Assembly (NCBI RefSeq): GCF_003075075.1 | Contig: NZ_QCYM01000008.1 | Location: 1 to 64,000 of the forward strand | Direction: 5' to 3' | DNA: 64,000 nucleotides | Source of the DNA: Labrenzia sp. 011 | Lineage (GTDB): Bacteria > Pseudomonadota > Alphaproteobacteria > Rhizobiales > Stappiaceae | Position numbers and translations under genes: made by a program | In this document: positions 12,501 through 20,146 of the stretch, piece by piece | Position numbering within the stretch: position 1 is the first letter of the stretch | Layout: each line of letters opens with the position of its first letter | Notes under the pieces: generated by a model | Seen by the model: the letters and a program-made list of their open reading frames with translations, nothing else | What the model was told of the DNA's origin: nothing | Database searches by the model: none

Positions 12501-13110
12501 CGACCAGCTTCATCAGGGGCGAGACTTCGTGGGAGACCGAAATCTGCGGGAAGCCGACGTCACTGGCGATTTTCTTCAATGCCTGTTCATGGGCCGGATA
12601 GGCATATGCATGCATCAGCACGATGGCGATGGACCGAATTCCCGCGTCCCATGCGGCCTGCATCTCCTTGCGGGCTTCCGTTTCGTCCAGCGCGGTTTCC
12701 AGCGTGCCATCCGCCCGGATGCGTTCGGTGATTTCATGAACGCGCTCATAGAGCAGTTCCGGTTTGATGATTTCCTTCGCAAAAATATGCGGGCGCGCCT
12801 GATACCCGATTTCCAGGGCGTCGCGGAATCCTCTGGTGATAAAGAGAGCCGTCCGCTCGCCCTTGCGTTCCAGAAGGGCGTTGGTGGCGACGGTCGTGCC
12901 CATTTTGACGGTCGCGACCGTGTCCGGGGGGATCGGTGCGCCTTTTTCGATACCGAGCAACTCGCGGATGCCCTGGATGGCGGCATCCCGGTAGGCTTCA
13001 GGGTTCTCTGAGAGAACTTTGTGCGGATGCAATGTTCCGTCAGGGCTGCGTCCGACGATGTCGGTGAAGGTGCCGCCCCGGTCGATCCAGAAATCCCACT
13101 TGGCTGTCAT
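9526..13110 (-). CDS. oplA: 5-oxoprolinase / hydantoinase, fused A and B subunits
   Basis: This 1194-residue enzyme is the single-chain form of the hydantoinase/oxoprolinase family. The N-terminal HyuA half has the actin-like ATPase motifs [27 protein letters not shown] and [11 protein letters not shown]. The C-terminal HyuB half begins near residue 680 ([20 protein letters not shown]) and shows [24 protein letters not shown] and [10 protein letters not shown]. The full-length fusion favours ATP-dependent 5-oxoprolinase (5-oxoproline to glutamate), but N-methylhydantoin and related lactams are possible. The start at 13110 follows GGGGAG; an upstream ATG at 13131 adds seven residues. A palindrome 95 bases upstream is shared with the TRAP operon, so substrate uptake and hydrolysis are probably co-regulated. 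Confidence 0.92.
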
Positions 13111-13205
13111 GTTCTCCCCTTTGCTTTCCATGGAGGCCTGTCACGCGCATGCGCCTGGAATTCGATCGGCCTGCCGTATTCCAAATAACAAGTGTGTTTA
13201 TGTTT

Positions 13206-13225
13206 ACATTTTATCGATAAATTGT
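13206..13225. promoter_or_regulatory. Operator A: 20-bp near-palindrome upstream of the oxoprolinase gene
   Basis: ACATTTTATCGATAAATTGT is symmetric at 18 of 20 positions and lies in an AT-rich promoter region, 95 bases before the oxoprolinase start. The same 20 bases occur on the opposite strand at 14940-14959 upstream of the TRAP transporter. The regulator encoded at 18033 is the obvious candidate ligand-responsive binder, by proximity only. Confidence 0.65.
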
Positions 13226-13341
13226 CGATGAGAAAATTTTGAGTCCCGAATCCGCTCTGCAGTTTCCATCAGGAGGGTTGGTCCGCAGCTGCATGCCGCG
13301 CGTCGGGGCATGCTTCCATAAGTCAGGCCGGATGACCGGTT

Positions 13342-14814
13342 TCAATGAGGCTTGCCGGAGCGCAGCAGCCTCAATCCGCTTGCGCCCCAGCCGAAGCGTT
13401 GAGCAACGGGCGTTGGGTCGGAAATGCTCAATGCGTCAAGTGCTTCCTTCATTTCTTCGTGGCTGTTGTGAACGAGAAGGAGCCAGCGGTCGCCTCCTGC
13501 GGGAGGAGGGGGCAGCTTTTTCAGCTCGTCCCTGTCCATCGCAGTTACAAATTCGTCCGGTGGTCTCAGGTAATACTCGAGGGCAGGGGCGGCAAAGCCC
13601 TTGTAGAGCACGAGTTGATCGTCCGTGGAGCGATTGATCCTGTAATCCTGAACAATGCCGCGCCAATTTGGCCGTACCTTGTCGTACAGCGTAAATCTGA
13701 GTTCCGGGAAGGTGAGCACCAGCGCTGCGGCGACAAGAAGAATCGGACCAATGCGGGGGGCGAGCTGGTGGGCGCCAGCCGCCGCCAGCAGCAGGAGCCC
13801 AGGCCATGCTGAAATCAGATACCGATCGAACAGGATCGGCTGGACGAGAAGGGAATAGAGACAGGCGAGAACCAGAGGGCCGGCCGTATAGGCGAGGCAG
13901 ACGAGCACGGCCCTGCCTTTTTTCCTGTCGCCTGATGAAAACTCCGTTTCAACGCGTATGGCGCAAAGACAATAGATGAGTGCCAATGCTGCGAGTATCG
14001 ACAGATAGACCAGCGACCCGGCAATGCTGAATGCCATTGCCTTCAGGAATTGACTGTCCGGATAGGCGATCCAGAACCCGGATTCGGCCACCGATCTGGC
14101 GCGGTTCGCCAGAATGATCAGCCAGGGCAGGAAGGCAAGTGCGCCGAAGCCCATTCCGATACAGGCAAGGGTTGCCGGTGACGCCGTGAACCTTCCCGCC
14201 CGGAGAGTGTCGCGCAGGGCATGGGCGGCACAGACCAGGCCGACGGTCGCAAATCCGAGCAGCGCATAAATGTGGCTGTAGAGAAATGCCGCGCCGCTGA
14301 TACACAGCAGGATGAACCAGCCGGCGGACGGCCGGTGCAGCACCTTCAGCAGCGACAGCAGGAAGGCAAGCCCGCAGGCGGCGAGAAGCGCATACATGCG
14401 GGCCTCGGTGGAATACCAGACATGGAACGGCGAGAGCGCCAGAAGCGCTGCGGCCAGCAGGCCCACGCATCCTGCGCCTTGCCCTTCTCCGGCAAGAGCC
14501 CTGCCGGTCAGATAGATCAGCCAGACAGCCAGAACGCCGAGAAGCGCGGAGGGAAGGCGAAGGGCGGTTTCGCTGTCGCCCAGGACCGGCATGGTCAGCC
14601 ACAAGATCACATTGTGAAGCGGCGGATAGTTGTCTGCGGCGACGGATGAAAGCAGTTCGCGAAAGGTTCCGCTGGACTGGCTCCAGCTCACCGCCTCATC
14701 GTACCAGAGGCTGGTTCTGTCCAGGCCGAAAATGCGGAGCGCAGCCGCAACGATCAGTATGCCGGCAAGCAGCAGCGAACCTGCAATCCTGCCGTGGCCT
14801 ATGTCCTGCCGCAC
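13342..14814 (-). CDS. Polytopic membrane glycosyltransferase of the GT39/ArnT-like (PMT_2) type
   Basis: This 490-residue protein has about ten membrane segments and a soluble C-terminal part. After the first helix comes LRIFGLDRTSLWYDEAVSW, carrying the acidic first-loop motif (DE) of C-family glycosyltransferases that use polyprenyl-phosphate sugars, and NYPPLHNVILW and WYSTEARMYALLA follow as in RgtA/B/C/D-like proteins. Such enzymes add sugars to lipid A, lipopolysaccharide or proteins at the periplasmic face. GTG 14814 is preferred because GGGAGG lies about 10 bases upstream; GTG 14832 would place that sequence inside the gene. It sits between the oxoprolinase and TRAP genes with no evident metabolic link. 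Confidence 0.8.
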   Translation of the reverse strand: MRQDIGHGRIAGSLLLAGILIVAAALRIFGLDRTSLWYDEAVSWSQSSGTFRELLSSVAADNYPPLHNVILWLTMPVLGDSETALRLPSALLGVLAVWLIYLTGRALAGEGQGAGCVGLLAAALLALSPFHVWYSTEARMYALLAACGLAFLLSLLKVLHRPSAGWFILLCISGAAFLYSHIYALLGFATVGLVCAAHALRDTLRAGRFTASPATLACIGMGFGALAFLPWLIILANRARSVAESGFWIAYPDSQFLKAMAFSIAGSLVYLSILAALALIYCLCAIRVETEFSSGDRKKGRAVLVCLAYTAGPLVLACLYSLLVQPILFDRYLISAWPGLLLLAAAGAHQLAPRIGPILLVAAALVLTFPELRFTLYDKVRPNWRGIVQDYRINRSTDDQLVLYKGFAAPALEYYLRPPDEFVTAMDRDELKKLPPPPAGGDRWLLLVHNSHEEMKEALDALSISDPTPVAQRFGWGASGLRLLRSGKPH

Positions 14815-14939
14815 GTGTTGGCGTCCTCCCACAGACGTGATTGCTGCACGCTAGAGCATCGCGTGTCCACATGAAAGCAGCTTGGCATCGCCAGCTCTCC
14901 CGCGGAAGGGGGTTGGTAGAAATGGCGATTTTTATAGCA

Positions 14940-14959
14940 ACAATTTATCGATAAAATGT
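14940..14959. promoter_or_regulatory. Operator B: the same 20-bp near-palindrome upstream of the TRAP operon
   Basis: ACAATTTATCGATAAAATGT on the plus strand is the exact reverse complement of operator A. It lies 119 bases before the dctP-like gene and 125 bases before the divergent glycosyltransferase gene, in an AT-rich patch that stands out from its GC-rich surroundings. It could control both directions. Confidence 0.65.
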
Positions 14960-15078
14960 TGATGTTTTCAATTTCCGAGTTTAGTCTGTGTGAGGATGCG
15001 CTTGTCGAAGGTGTGCAGAGAACGCACCCTGGGCAGCATCGCGACGGGATACATCCCCCTTCCAAGAGGAGTTTATTC

Positions 15079-16074
15079 ATGCTGCAATCACGTTTTCTGA
15101 GCAGGGCGGGTGTCCGTCTGGTCGCCGCCGCCGCTTTCGGTCTTGCCGGTGCCGCTACGGTTTCCGCCGAAACCAAATGGGACATGCCGACGCCTTATGG
15201 TGACAGCAACTTCCATACCCAGAACATTGCCGTCTTCGCCGAGGACGTCAAAGAGAAGACCGACGGGTCGCTGGTCATCCAGATCCACTCTGCCGGTTCC
15301 CTCTTCAAGCATCCGGAAATCAAGAACGCCGTTCGCAAGGGCTTGGCGCCAATCGGCGAGACCCTCGTGTCGCGGCTTTCGAATGAAGATGCCGTCTTTG
15401 GCGTCGATTCCGTCCCGTTCCTGGCACCATCCTATGACAAGGCATGGAAACTCTACCAGGCCGCGAAGCCGGCCATGGAAGAGAAGCTCGATGCACAGGG
15501 TCTCGTGCTTCTTTATTCCGTTCCGTGGCCGCCGCAGGGTGTTTATGCCAAGAAGGAAATCAACAGCATCGACGACATGAAGGGCCTCAAGTTCCGCGCC
15601 TATAACGCGGCAACGGAGCGGCTGGCCCAGTTGGCAGGTGCCGTGCCGACCCAGGTCGAAGTGCCGGATATTCCGACGGCCTTTTCCACCGGCCGCGTGG
15701 AAGCAATGATCACCTCGCCCTCCACCGGAGCGAATTCCAAGGCCTGGGATTATCTGAGCCACTATCACGACACGCAGGCCTGGCTGCCGAAGAACATGGT
15801 CATCGTCAACAAGAGTGCTTTCGACGCACTCTCCGATGAGGAAAAAGCCGCCGTGCTGGAAGCGGCTGCTGAAGCCGAGAAACGTGGGTGGGAAGCTTCC
15901 AAGGTGGAAACCAACGGCAAGACGGCCATTCTGGTGGAAAACGGCATCACCGTTGTCAAACCGAGCAAGCAGCTGATCCAGGATTTGGCCGGTATCGGCG
16001 AAACCATGGCTGCCGAATGGCAGGAGCAAGCCGGTGAAGATGGCGCGGCCATTCTCGAAGCCTACAAAAACTGA
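15079..16074 (+). CDS. dctP: TRAP transporter solute-binding protein (DctP family)
   Basis: This 331-residue periplasmic binding protein has a signal peptide (about residues 1-30, cleaved near VSAETKW). The family features are SAGSLFKHPEIKNAVRKG, the central KGLKFRAYNAATERLAQLAG with the conserved arginine that binds the ligand carboxylate, and QVEVPDIPTAFSTGRVEA. It captures a carboxylated compound and delivers it to the DctQM membrane subunits. AGAGGAG lies seven bases before ATG 15079. Operator B upstream and the oxoprolinase nearby suggest a pyroglutamate-like or hydantoin-derived acid as substrate, which is inference. A terminator-like hairpin follows directly. Confidence 0.93.
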   Translation: MLQSRFLSRAGVRLVAAAAFGLAGAATVSAETKWDMPTPYGDSNFHTQNIAVFAEDVKEKTDGSLVIQIHSAGSLFKHPEIKNAVRKGLAPIGETLVSRLSNEDAVFGVDSVPFLAPSYDKAWKLYQAAKPAMEEKLDAQGLVLLYSVPWPPQGVYAKKEINSIDDMKGLKFRAYNAATERLAQLAGAVPTQVEVPDIPTAFSTGRVEAMITSPSTGANSKAWDYLSHYHDTQAWLPKNMVIVNKSAFDALSDEEKAAVLEAAAEAEKRGWEASKVETNGKTAILVENGITVVKPSKQLIQDLAGIGETMAAEWQEQAGEDGAAILEAYKN

Positions 16075-16108: not shown

Positions 16109-16142
16109 CCATAATCAGCTGCACATCCGGCGGGGGAAACCG

Positions 16143-16700
16143 ATGCGTAAGGCCTTGAATGCGCTGTATCAGGCGTCAACGGTACTGGCTGCGTGCTGTC
16201 TCGTCGTCATTGCCTCTCTGGTGGCCCTCCAGGTGCTCATGCGGCTGCTCGACGGCGCCCTGAGCCTGGGCGGTATGGATCCGATCGGCCTGCTGGTGCC
16301 TTCGCTTGCCGAGATCGCCGGGTTTCTTCTTGTCGGAGCATCTTTCCTGGCGCTTGCCGGAACCTTCCGCAACAGCGACCACATCCGGGTCAATATCCTT
16401 CTTCAGTCGGTCGGGCCGCGGGTTGCGCATCTGCTGAATATATGGGCCGTGGCGGTTGCCCTCGCCCTTGCAGTCTTTTTTACCTGGCATGCCGGTGGCC
16501 TCGCTTATGACAGCTACGCCTACGGGGAAGTGTCCTTCGGTATCATTCCGGTTCCGCTGGTCATTCCGCAATCGATCATGGCCGCAGGACTTCTGGTGTT
16601 TTCCATAGCTCTGCTGGACGATCTGGTCGTTGCCCTTGCCGGGCATGCCCCGAGCTTCGAGACGGTCATCAAGGACGATCTGGTCGAGGGGAAAGAATAA
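16143..16700 (+). CDS. dctQ: TRAP transporter small membrane subunit (DctQ family)
   Basis: This 185-residue protein has four hydrophobic segments and the DctQ layout: a first helix (ASTVLAACCLVVIASLVALQ), an amphipathic stretch, then FLLVGASFLALAGTFRNSDHIRVNIL, which carries the family's conserved R-x-x-x-H-I-R-V pattern. It links the solute-binding protein to the large permease subunit. GGCGGGGGAA precedes the ATG at 16143. The stop overlaps the dctM start by one base (TAATG), so the two membrane subunits are coupled. Identity is firm; the substrate is not known from this subunit. Confidence 0.92.
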   Translation: MRKALNALYQASTVLAACCLVVIASLVALQVLMRLLDGALSLGGMDPIGLLVPSLAEIAGFLLVGASFLALAGTFRNSDHIRVNILLQSVGPRVAHLLNIWAVAVALALAVFFTWHAGGLAYDSYAYGEVSFGIIPVPLVIPQSIMAAGLLVFSIALLDDLVVALAGHAPSFETVIKDDLVEGKE

Positions 16701-18004
16701 TGGACCTTTCCCTGATCGCGTTTTCCCTCGGGCTCGGCATGCTGGCAGCCCTGGCGACCGGCATCTGGGTCGCTGTTGCTCTTTTTGCCGTTGCGCTTGC
16801 AGCAATCATGGTCCTCGTGCCGGTGCCTGCCGGTACCGTCATGGCGACCACCGTCTGGGGCGCCTCCAATTCCTGGGATCTGACAGCCCTGCCGATGTTC
16901 ATCTGGATGGGCGAAATCCTGTTCCGGTCCCGCCTGTCGGAGGACATGTTTGCCGGTCTGTCTCCCTGGATGCGCAATCTGCCCGGCCGGCTGCTGCACG
17001 TGAACATTCTCGGTTGCGGTATCTTCGCGGCCGTATCCGGTTCCTCGGCGGCCACCACGGCAACCATCGGGCGCATGTCGCTGCCGGAGCTGAAGCAGCG
17101 CGGCTACGATGAACGCATGGCCATCGGTACCCTTGCCGGATCGGGGACTCTGGGGTTGCTTATTCCTCCTTCGATCATCCTGATCGTCTATGGTGCGGCG
17201 ACCGAACAATCGATCGCGCGACTCTTCATGGCCGGTGTGCTGCCAGGGGCCATGCTGTGTCTCCTGTTCATGGGATATGTGGCGCTTTGGGCGCTTGCCA
17301 ACCGGCAGAAGATGCCGCCGAAGGAAGAGCCTGTCCCCTTTGTCAGCCGGCTGATAGCAACCCGCAGGCTGTTTCCGGTCATCGGCCTGATCGCGGGTGT
17401 CATCGGTTCGATCTATGCGGGGCTGGCTTCGCCGACGGAAGCGGCCGCCATCGGCGTGATGCTGTCCCTGCTGCTTTCCTGGGCCAGCGGAACCATGAGC
17501 CGGAAAAGCTTTTCCGATGCCCTCATGGGAGCGACCCGAACCTCCTGCATGATCGCCTTTATCCTTGCCGGAGCGTCGTTTCTGACCGTCGCCATGGGAT
17601 ACACAGGCATTCCGCGCGAACTGGCCGCCTGGATCGGTTCGCTGGACCTGTCACCCTATGCGCTTCTGGTGGCCCTGACCCTGTTCTTCATCGTGCTGGG
17701 CTGTTTTCTCGACGGCATATCGGTGGTGGTCCTGACAACCTCGGTGATCCTGCCGATGGTGGAGCAGGCCGGTCTCGACCTCATCTGGTTCGGGATCTAT
17801 CTGGTTCTGGTCGTGGAGATGAGCCAGATAACACCGCCGGTCGGCTTCAATCTGTTCGTGCTGCAGGGAATGACCGGATACAACATCTTCAAGGTTGCCC
17901 GGATGGCATTGCCGTTCTTCCTGTTGATGATCCTGGCTGTGGTTCTGATTGTGGTGTTTCCGGACTTGGCTCTTTGGCTGCCACAGACGATGCTGAGCAA
18001 TTAA
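16700..18004 (+). CDS. dctM: TRAP transporter large permease subunit (DctM family)
   Basis: This 434-residue polytopic protein has about twelve membrane segments. Family motifs are ALPMFIWMGEILFRSRLSED near the first quarter, SGSSAATTATIGRMSLPELK with the conserved small-residue loop, and GTLGLLIPPSIILIVYG. It is the ion-coupled (usually sodium) transport channel of the TRAP system. It overlaps dctQ by one base and ends 28 bases before the likely start of the regulator gene, so permease and regulator are probably co-transcribed from the promoter near operator B. Confidence 0.95.
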   Translation: MDLSLIAFSLGLGMLAALATGIWVAVALFAVALAAIMVLVPVPAGTVMATTVWGASNSWDLTALPMFIWMGEILFRSRLSEDMFAGLSPWMRNLPGRLLHVNILGCGIFAAVSGSSAATTATIGRMSLPELKQRGYDERMAIGTLAGSGTLGLLIPPSIILIVYGAATEQSIARLFMAGVLPGAMLCLLFMGYVALWALANRQKMPPKEEPVPFVSRLIATRRLFPVIGLIAGVIGSIYAGLASPTEAAAIGVMLSLLLSWASGTMSRKSFSDALMGATRTSCMIAFILAGASFLTVAMGYTGIPRELAAWIGSLDLSPYALLVALTLFFIVLGCFLDGISVVVLTTSVILPMVEQAGLDLIWFGIYLVLVVEMSQITPPVGFNLFVLQGMTGYNIFKVARMALPFFLLMILAVVLIVVFPDLALWLPQTMLSN

Positions 18005-18032
18005 CGAAAAATCCTTGCGGGAGATTCAGGCG

Positions 18033-18581
18033 TTGCCGGAGAAGCCAGACATCACGAACGAACCGAATTCCGAAATGTCCATCGGACCTGTCGTTTCTTC
18101 GGCGCATCTGGCTTCGGGCGCCATGCCGGCCCTGTCGGAAATCGAGTTTGCCGTCACGATGATGGTCAATGCCTACCACCGCTGGATGGTTCGCTGCATG
18201 GCGGCCAGCGGATCGGAAGGGCTGGGACCGCTGGACGTGCTGGTGCTTCATTCGGTCAATCACCGCGGCCGGGCAAAAACGCTGTCGGACATCTGTCTGG
18301 TGTTGAACATAGAGGACACCCACACGGTTACCTATGCTCTCAAGAAACTTCAAAAAGCCGGGCTAATTTCAACCGGCCGCAGGGGCAAGGAAAAGACCGC
18401 CGAGATCACTGCCACGGGAGAGGCGGCCTGTATGGAATACAGGCGCCTGCGCGAAGCCCTTCTTGTGGAACCCATGAAGGCGATGGGGCTGGACGAGAGT
18501 GAACTCTCCCGGCTGGCCGCGATGCTTCGTCTCGTATCCGGAAATTACGATCAGGCCGCACGCGCCGCTGCGGCCATGTAA
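18033..18581 (+). CDS. MarR-like winged-helix transcription regulator (COG5631-type)
   Basis: The 182-residue product has an N-terminal region typical of a family of MarR-like regulators (GPVVSSAHLASGAMPALSEI, then a helical AVTMMVNAYHRWMVRCMAA). A winged-helix domain follows, with the recognition helix in IEDTHTVTYALKKLQKAGLI and a wing STGRRGKEKTAEIT. These are probably dimeric DNA-binding proteins that respond to small ligands. The start is uncertain: TTG 18033 has GGGAG nine bases upstream, TTG 18015 and ATG 18075 are alternatives. It directly follows the TRAP genes and is the best candidate to bind the two 20-bp operators upstream. Confidence 0.8.
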   Translation: MPEKPDITNEPNSEMSIGPVVSSAHLASGAMPALSEIEFAVTMMVNAYHRWMVRCMAASGSEGLGPLDVLVLHSVNHRGRAKTLSDICLVLNIEDTHTVTYALKKLQKAGLISTGRRGKEKTAEITATGEAACMEYRRLREALLVEPMKAMGLDESELSRLAAMLRLVSGNYDQAARAAAAM

Positions 18582-18646: not shown

Positions 18647-18985
18647 ATGGAAGATCAGGATGCCGTTTCCGCGCTGGGCGCGCTTGCCCAGGAGGACCGT
18701 CTGGCTGCGTTCCGCCTGTTGATGGCGGCAGGGCCGCAAGGTCTTCCTTCCGGGGCGATTGCCGAGCGTCTGGATATTCAGCCGACCCGGATGTCGTTTC
18801 ATCTGACCACATTGGAGCGGGCGGGTCTTCTAACGGCCCGCAGGGAGGGGCGGCATATTCATTATGCGGTCAGGTTTGACCGTATGAAAAACCTTCTGGC
18901 CTTCCTGGTGGAGGACTGCTGCGGCAACGATCCCGCCATCTGCTGTTTCCCTACCGGCAAGTATACAACGCCGTCAGGCGCCTGA
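18647..18985 (+). CDS. arsR: ArsR/SmtB family arsenic-responsive repressor
   Basis: This 112-residue winged-helix repressor has a recognition helix in TRMSFHLTTLERAGLLTARR followed by the wing REGRHIHYAV. It carries a C-terminal cysteine cluster, C91/C92 and C99/C100 (CCGNDPAICC), a layout like the C-terminal As(III) site of the Acidithiobacillus-type ArsR rather than the helix-borne CVC site of plasmid R773 ArsR. Binding of arsenite would release the operator just upstream. It starts the arsR-arsC-arsH operon, with arsC 14 bases downstream. Confidence 0.92.
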   Translation: MEDQDAVSALGALAQEDRLAAFRLLMAAGPQGLPSGAIAERLDIQPTRMSFHLTTLERAGLLTARREGRHIHYAVRFDRMKNLLAFLVEDCCGNDPAICCFPTGKYTTPSGA

Positions 18986-18999
18986 CAGGATTTCACTTC

Positions 19000-19413
19000 A
19001 TGACGATCACCATCTATCACAACCCGAAATGCGGGACCTCCCGCAACACGCTTGAGATGATCCGCAAATCCGGCGTGGAGCCGGAGGTCATCGAATATCT
19101 CAAGACCCCGCCAGGCCGGGATGAGCTTGTCAGCCTGATTGCCAGGATGGGAATTGCCGTTCGTGACCTTCTGCGCCAGAAGGGGACGCCCTATGACGAG
19201 CTCGGTCTTGACGATGCCAAATGGTCCGACGATCAACTGATCGATTTCATGATGGAGCATCCCATTCTGATCAACCGGCCGATCGTTGTTTCCGACAAGG
19301 GCGTTCGCTTGTGCAGGCCCTCCGAAAAGGTCATGGATCTGCTGCCGAAAGACATCGGGATCTTCACGAAAGAGGACGGCAGTGAGGTGAGGCCGGGAGC
19401 GGGCAATGACTGA
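19000..19413 (+). CDS. arsC: Arsenate reductase, glutaredoxin-dependent
   Basis: This 137-residue enzyme reduces arsenate to arsenite using glutathione and glutaredoxin. The active-site cysteine is C11 in [12 protein letters not shown], the usual motif of the R773 ArsC family (not the thioredoxin-linked type). The arginine cluster that positions arsenate is seen in [21 protein letters not shown], with the conserved R in NRPIV. The family's length is about 140 residues, so it is complete. AGGA lies upstream of the ATG. It overlaps arsH by eight bases. Without an efflux pump in the operon, the arsenite made here needs another exit. Confidence 0.95.
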
Positions 19414-20146
19414 ACTTGACCTTGCCGGTAACGACCTTCGCAATATTGTCGCACCGGATCTGAAGCCGATTGAAAAGAGCCGCCTGCTTGCACCCGACTT
19501 CCCGGTTCATCCGCCACGCGTCCTCCTGCTGTATGGCTCTCTGCGCGAACGCTCCTACAGCCGGTTTCTCGTTCTGGAAGCCGAGCGCCTGTTGAAGGCG
19601 TTCGGTGCCGAGACCCGGATCTTCAATCCCTCCGGTCTCCCCCTGCCGGATGATGCGGATGCCAGCCATCCGAAGGTCGCCGAACTCAGGGAGCTGTGCG
19701 CCTGGTCGGAGGCGCATGTGTGGTGTTCTCCCGAGCGTCACGGTGCGATGACCGGTATACTGAAATCCCAGATCGACTGGATACCGTTGAGCGTTGGAGC
19801 AATTCGTCCGACACAGGGCAAGACACTGGCCCTGATGCAGGTTTCCGGCGGATCCCAATCGTTCAATGCCCTCAACCAGATGCGGGTGCTCGGCAGATGG
19901 ATGCGCATGGTGACCATCCCCAACCAGTCCTCGGTTCCCAAGGCCTATCAGGAGTTTGACGAGGACGGACGGATGAAAGCCTCTCCCTTGTATGACCGTG
20001 TGGTGGATGTGATGGAAGAGCTGATGAAGTTCACACTTCTGACGCGCGGACAGTCCGGCTATCTGGTCGACCGCTATTCGGAAAGGAAGGCGGCGCGGGA
20101 AAAGCAGTCAGAGGCGGAAACAGCGGCGCTCGGCGTCGCCCGCTAG
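19406..20146 (+). CDS. arsH: ArsH, NADPH-dependent FMN reductase / organoarsenical oxidase
   Basis: This 246-residue flavoprotein has the NADPH-dependent FMN reductase fold. The FMN phosphate loop is [13 protein letters not shown], and the ArsH-specific parts [25 protein letters not shown] and [17 protein letters not shown] are present. ArsH proteins oxidise trivalent organoarsenicals such as methylarsenite to less toxic forms and also reduce quinones or chromate. It overlaps arsC and ends the operon. The organoarsenical activity makes sense of an operon with no arsenite pump, but that is inference. Confidence 0.93.

Follow-up and report, generated by a model that had tools for sequence, protein, structure and literature searches.

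The closest described system is the PxpR-pxpTABC locus of Corynebacterium glutamicum, in which genes for a 5-oxoproline transporter and for an ATP-dependent oxoprolinase have a local regulator beside them; according to the accessible text of that report, PxpR acts as a repressor and binds its ligand, 5-oxoproline, with a KD of about 0.73 uM (PMC13274462). In that text, the authors of the 2026 paper state that, to their knowledge, bacterial regulation of 5-oxoproline metabolism had not been studied before (PMC13274462). The same text describes the TRAP receptors DctP6 and DctP7 of Bordetella pertussis (PDB 2pfz and 2pfy), which have a eukaryotic-type oxoprolinase gene nearby; B. pertussis could not be shown to use 5-oxoproline, and no regulator or operator appears in what that text says of the system (PMC13274462). 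We found no description of the regulon reported here in the literature searched, most subscription journals lying outside its coverage.

The locus described here lies in a 64,000-nucleotide stretch of Labrenzia sp. 011, the whole of which was analysed and is called the window (Table 1). As far as the accessible text goes, it resembles PxpR-pxpTABC in the arrangement we propose, in which uptake of 5-oxoproline and its hydrolysis are placed under a regulator encoded nearby. However, the components differ, since the C. glutamicum system employs a GntR-type regulator, a transporter of the APC superfamily and the PxpABC enzyme (PMC13274462), whereas the present locus encodes a MarR/HTH_27 regulator, a TRAP transporter and a fused HyuA-HyuB enzyme. 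By analogy, the regulator may work like PxpR without being one. Read in this way, the system would belong to a kind already known, the small catabolic regulon that carries a MarR-type regulator of its own.

We propose, as the probable reading of the locus as a whole, that a MarR-type repressor released by 5-oxoproline controls the TRAP importer of this compound and a fused eukaryotic-type oxoprolinase. A dimer of the regulator would bind ACAWTTTRTCGAYAAAWTGT before oplA and before the dctPQM-marR operon, to which the regulator gene itself belongs, and would repress both units by covering their promoters. 5-Oxoproline (pyroglutamate) or a close derivative would then bind the regulator, leading to its release from DNA. 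The TRAP transporter would import 5-oxoproline, which OplA would hydrolyse, with ATP, to glutamate.

Table 1. Features of the candidate 5-oxoproline regulon, in window coordinates.
Feature	Position	Strand	Basis or remark
oplA, fused hydantoinase A/B, eukaryotic-type 5-oxoprolinase-like, 1201 aa	9526..13131	-	Pfam PF05378, PF01968, PF19278, PF02538
Possible oplA promoter, TCGACA-N17-AAACAT, spacer = operator	13200..13228	-	Weak
Candidate operator upstream of oplA, 20-bp near-palindrome	13206..13225	.	Site >20 bits before 37/40 family oplA rows
Candidate operator upstream of the dctPQM-marR operon	14940..14959	.	Site >20 bits before 29/29 family dctP rows
Predicted dctP promoter, TTGATG-N17-TAGTCT	14959..14987	+	-35 box begins at last operator base
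dctP, TRAP solute-binding protein, pyroglutamate-binding kind	15079..16074	+	PF03480; structure and sequence matches
dctQ, TRAP small membrane subunit	16140..16700	+	PF04290
dctM, TRAP large membrane subunit	16700..18004	+	PF06808; TIGR00786 above cut-off
marR, MarR/HTH_27 regulator gene closing the TRAP operon	18015..18581	+	PF13463, 68.9 bits (cut-off 22.2)

The regulator gene starts 10 bp behind dctM; the conserved part of the protein begins near residue 23, and the ATG at 18075 may be its true start. Besides HTH_27, the protein matches PF12802 MarR_2 (27.3 bits, cut-off 27), and Pfam at E <= 0.001 returns these two domains alone, with no GntR-type domain. Its predicted fold is the MarR fold with flanking dimerisation helices. 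No PDB sequence match was found at E <= 0.01, and AbfR, SlyA, MarR and the other solved MarR-family proteins among the matches listed are 10-22% identical to it. Within the taxonomic family (Stappiaceae) it was matched in 87 of 87 genomes, the best match in the 86 relatives being 70-95% identical. OplA carries Hydant_A_N, Hydantoinase_A, Hydant_A_C and Hydantoinase_B in this order on one chain, an order (fused HyuA-HyuB) that we take to mark the eukaryotic type of 5-oxoprolinase. Other genes share the neighbourhood. Between the two sites lies a PMT_2/glycosyltransferase-39-like gene (13342-14832; PF13231) with no evident part in the regulon, which is present in many Roseibium loci and absent from others. 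Directly behind marR is an arsenic group (18647-20146) that encodes an ArsR/SmtB-type regulator, ArsC (TIGR00014) and ArsH (TIGR02690), the last two assigned above cut-off; this group was undetected beside marR in many relatives.

The site before oplA, ACATTTTATCGATAAATTGT, recurs before dctP as its exact reverse complement, so that both promoters read the same 20 bases, ACAATTTATCGATAAAATGT, toward their own gene. The first-pass annotation had reported these identical 20-mers, called them near-palindromes and placed them about 95-120 bases before operon starts. Re-reading the window confirms all three points: the 20-mer has palindromic symmetry at 18 of its 20 positions, the dctP ATG (15079) lies 119 bp from its site, and the ATG of oplA at 13110 lies about 95 bp away. 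Its ribosome-binding site looks better, and this ATG is more likely to be the oplA start than the first codon of the open reading frame (13131), which is 74 bp from the site. The pair is also rare. With up to three mismatches, the relaxed 20-mer ACAWTTTATCGATAAAWTGT matches the window at the two sites only, and 0 of 100 shuffled sequences contain a match; the 12-mer core TTTATCGATAAA occurs at these sites and nowhere else in the 5.10-Mb genome, where the composition of the window predicts 0.043-0.044 occurrences.

Conservation was followed in 40 family loci around the regulator, plus the window. A matrix was trained on 65 family sites (consensus ACAWTTTRTCGAYAAAWTGT), closely spaced oplA/dctP pairs (L038, L050 and L056) being counted for the other gene too and L056 contributing one site counted for both genes; it scores each window site at 36.3 and the next best place in the window at 4.1. 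The scan of orthologues in relatives that had been suggested as a check of the motif gave the expected outcome. Among usable orthologues (at least 60% identity, start aligned; window counted), 29 of 29 dctP genes and 37 of 40 oplA genes had a site of more than 20 bits in the 300 bp before them, the oplA genes of L053, L067 and L072 having no strong site; the count is descriptive, because the same loci trained the matrix. Spacing varies little in the genus: the dctP start mostly lies 116-123 bp from its site, and the start of the oplA open reading frame about 61-76 bp. In two loci the oplA orthologue is found in three tblastn pieces (L061:133-3546 and L178:1879-5474), as if frameshifted or misassembled.

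The family-trained matrix was then applied outside the family, to 40 loci of the same order (Hyphomicrobiales) that belong to other families; 34 of these loci have a linked OplA or DctP. In 33 of these 34, the best site in about 19 kb falls in the upstream windows of oplA, dctP or marR, which at 300 bp each together cover 3.7% of the sequence; with 40 palindromic matrices whose columns had been shuffled, the number of such loci was 1-18, with a median of 3. The sole miss is L108, where the second-best hit falls in an upstream window. Top scores are low in some of these loci, and below 0 in L106, L107 and L114. The six loci left out of this count have no OplA or DctP at 45% identity or more, and in three of them (L121, L126 and L128; not L119, L127 or L134) the best site lies shortly before marR. 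The layout recurs among the named loci (80 loci, the best from 547 candidates), in records named Roseibium, Breoghania, Cohaesibacter, Stappia, Pannonibacter and Pseudovibrio and also in Mesorhizobium, Bosea, Hoeflea, Roseovarius, Roseicyclus and Roseibacterium; several of the 80 overlap the fetched loci (for example, L144/L033, L145/L035 and L169/L064), and the family members among them are effectively in the training set. In the Roseovarius, Roseicyclus and Roseibacterium records and in L196 the core is TTTGTTGACAAA. Two named loci, L177 and L194, have the MarR gene and oplA, yet their best site lies elsewhere.

The position of the candidate operator relative to the predicted dctP promoter is also kept. 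In 28 of 29 family rows TTGATG or TTGACG begins at the last operator base, and TAnnnT follows at a spacing of 16-18, likewise in 28 of 29 (background 0.006). Measured from the inferred dctP start, the centre of the candidate operator is about 44 bp upstream, and a protein bound there would touch the -35 region. The abutting -35 box counts in favour of our model, and the position of the centre suits a repressor, while an activator is also compatible with it. Class II activators sit close to such a position, and the same sites and regulator might instead serve an activator or dual regulator that aids RNA polymerase when 5-oxoproline is present, as would be allowed by an operator that, in 28 of 29 family rows, lies upstream of the -35 box and abuts it; to this extent the geometry at dctP tells against our model. 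The oplA side argues, if weakly, for repression. Here 33 of 37 family rows carry TCGACA or TTGACA across the opposite edge of the operator, and a -10-like hexamer with A2 and T6 stands at N17 in 24 of 36 (background 0.04), so that the operator would fall between the promoter elements, a geometry that is weak because outside the family it was seen in 1 of 24. MarR proteins, moreover, are mostly repressors. So is the analogous PxpR, the only studied 5-oxoproline regulator that we found, which binds 5-oxoproline according to the accessible text (PMC13274462) and speaks both for our model and against activation. We regard activation or dual control as rather unlikely and continue to favour a repressor.

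With regard to the substrate, the proposal of a lactam such as 5-oxoproline gains support from the binding protein. The top structural and top sequence matches of DctP are 2pfz, 2pfy and 6wgm, all of which bind pyroglutamate (5-oxoproline), and DctP is 44-48% identical to these three as against about 20% to other TRAP receptors; from this kinship we infer the substrate itself. The same regulon could nevertheless serve mainly another cyclic amide or acid, such as hydantoin, N-methylhydantoin or D-5-oxoproline, rather than L-5-oxoproline. OplA falls below every NCBIfam cut-off (caprolactamase alpha, 341.7 bits against 1000), its best full-length solved match carries the label N-methylhydantoinase, and a PxpA-family gene elsewhere in the genome counts against our model, since the 5-oxoprolinase activity may lie with another enzyme, either besides OplA or in its place. 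In Stappia-type loci, a further site stands before an Asp/Glu/hydantoin racemase-family gene just upstream of marR (L062, L063, L064, L163, L168 and L169; five cases, since L064 and L169 are the same contig), with a D-amino acid dehydrogenase-like gene on the other side of the site in all except L168. In L060 both genes are present, with no core site there at up to one mismatch. The TRAP genes of the Stappia-type loci are a different set, whose DctP is 50-52% identical to that of the window. The racemase and dehydrogenase-like genes with their further site are the only informative neighbours; 19 proteins encoded beside marR and oplA in other taxa gave no recurrent clue to the substrate. These genes widen the likely pathway to D- or other cyclic forms, place the exact substrate in some doubt and could mean a different or wider substrate than our model holds. 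Set against the closeness of DctP to pyroglutamate binders, we judge it improbable that L-5-oxoproline is not the main substrate, and we retain 5-oxoproline as the preferred ligand.

Two further observations touch these enzymes. At L067:11171-11830 and L187:8355-9005, too, a gene of the racemase family stands just before marR, with 44-45% identity to its Stappia-type counterpart. The Labrenzia genome has, besides the PxpA (LamB_YcsF) family gene, a second HyuB gene (G000:C5:35706-36422 and G000:C22:41395-42978), and other lactam or oxoproline enzymes may therefore exist in it besides OplA.

Which protein reads the motif can be approached through genomes that have one gene and not the other. 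Among 397 genomes of the order, 126 encode OplA at E <= 1e-250 with no MarR match at E <= 1e-20; 40 of these, hand-picked and many from the higher-identity end, served as controls. The best upstream score of oplA exceeded 0 in 29 of the 33 usable non-family loci with the MarR gene (of 40 order loci; median 17.9) and in 0 of the 40 MarR-negative genomes, whose scores (median -26.4, highest -8.4) are like those of shuffled sequence (Fisher p = 2e-16, a value to be taken with caution, the sequences being related). Among the named loci it exceeded 0 in 69 of the 73 usable of 80, family members included. Nine taxonomic families (f2, f14, f21, f24, f28, f29, f32, f45 and f49) contain both MarR-positive and MarR-negative genomes, and the contrast is therefore not simply one of taxonomy, although a number of the MarR-positive loci in f28, f29 and f32 have weak sites (L112, L105, L106, L136 and L114). 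Where the TRAP genes are unlinked, the site lies between divergent marR and oplA (L068, L070 and L071, and others among the named loci). The phylogenetic profile is weak alone, OplA (E <= 1e-250) being found in 90 of 119 MarR-positive genomes and 126 OplA genomes having no MarR match, and we therefore relied on the upstream-site test. Against our model stand the 29 MarR-positive genomes without OplA, some of them fragmentary, the four of 33 loci that score 0 or less, the three family oplA genes without a strong site and the two named loci whose best site is elsewhere.

From 29 of 33 against 0 of 40 it follows that the motif accompanies the MarR/HTH_27 gene, which bears out the suggestion of one regulon with a MarR-like regulator. 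The palindrome stands before the regulator's own operon or next to its gene and, on sequence grounds, tracks its presence; the regulon is very probably read by the MarR-type protein, whose physical binding we infer. As this binding is read from sequence, another regulator, such as the ArsR-like protein, a MocR/GntR-type neighbour or a distant factor, might read the motif with the MarR gene as a bystander. However, given that the motif tracks the MarR gene, that a site lies near marR also in three of the six loci without linked oplA or dctP, that the ArsR-like gene is undetected in many motif-bearing loci and that relatives do not keep the weak match at the MocR-type gene, we consider this very unlikely. 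The ArsR-like neighbour (18647) was rejected as the binder, many loci keeping the motif with no ArsR-like gene detected, and the MocR-type place (25859, 4.1 bits) exceeds 0 before only 1 of 25 MocR homologues in the fetched loci. That the repeat is an artefact of chance or duplication without function, which identical 20-mers 1.7 kb apart might suggest through local duplication, is almost certainly wrong, with about 0.04 cores expected per genome, the same promoter positions kept across genera and families, substitutions among sites that preserve the palindrome consensus, and contradiction by both the out-of-family top-hit test and the MarR-presence contrast.

5-Oxoproline is a common by-product of glutamate, and the locus offers a second, unrelated candidate sensor for it, with an exact candidate operator, a defined importer and a candidate enzyme. 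It yields a clear prediction for many Alphaproteobacteria, would help to assign function to many genes whose annotation stops at hydantoinase/oxoprolinase, MarR family or TRAP transporter, and might serve as the source of a biosensor for 5-oxoproline. More tentatively, and with considerable doubt, the gene could be the founder of a family of MarR-type sensors of 5-oxoproline that is widespread in Alphaproteobacteria, with records from Hyphomicrobiales and Rhodobacteraceae, and whose operator drifts slowly from TTTATCGATAAA to TTTGTTGACAAA; Stappia-type lineages would also have recruited the racemase and the D-amino acid dehydrogenase-like enzyme, allowing joint use of the D- and L-5-oxoproline released when peptides and cell walls are broken down.

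Elsewhere in the Labrenzia genome, the 16-mer AHTTTRTCGAYAAADT matches with up to two mismatches at 29 places, 27 of them besides the two sites; among the four of these 27 that were scored by matrix as possible further regulon members, the best reaches 7.9 bits as against 36.3, and the one in the window (25859) was rejected. In family f20 (L126 and L127), marR lies beside split and distant HyuA/HyuB-like genes, 27-31% identical to OplA, and a divergent TRAP operon. The best matrix hit in L127 is at 16535-16554 (10.2 bits), about 140 bp before the HyuA-like match.
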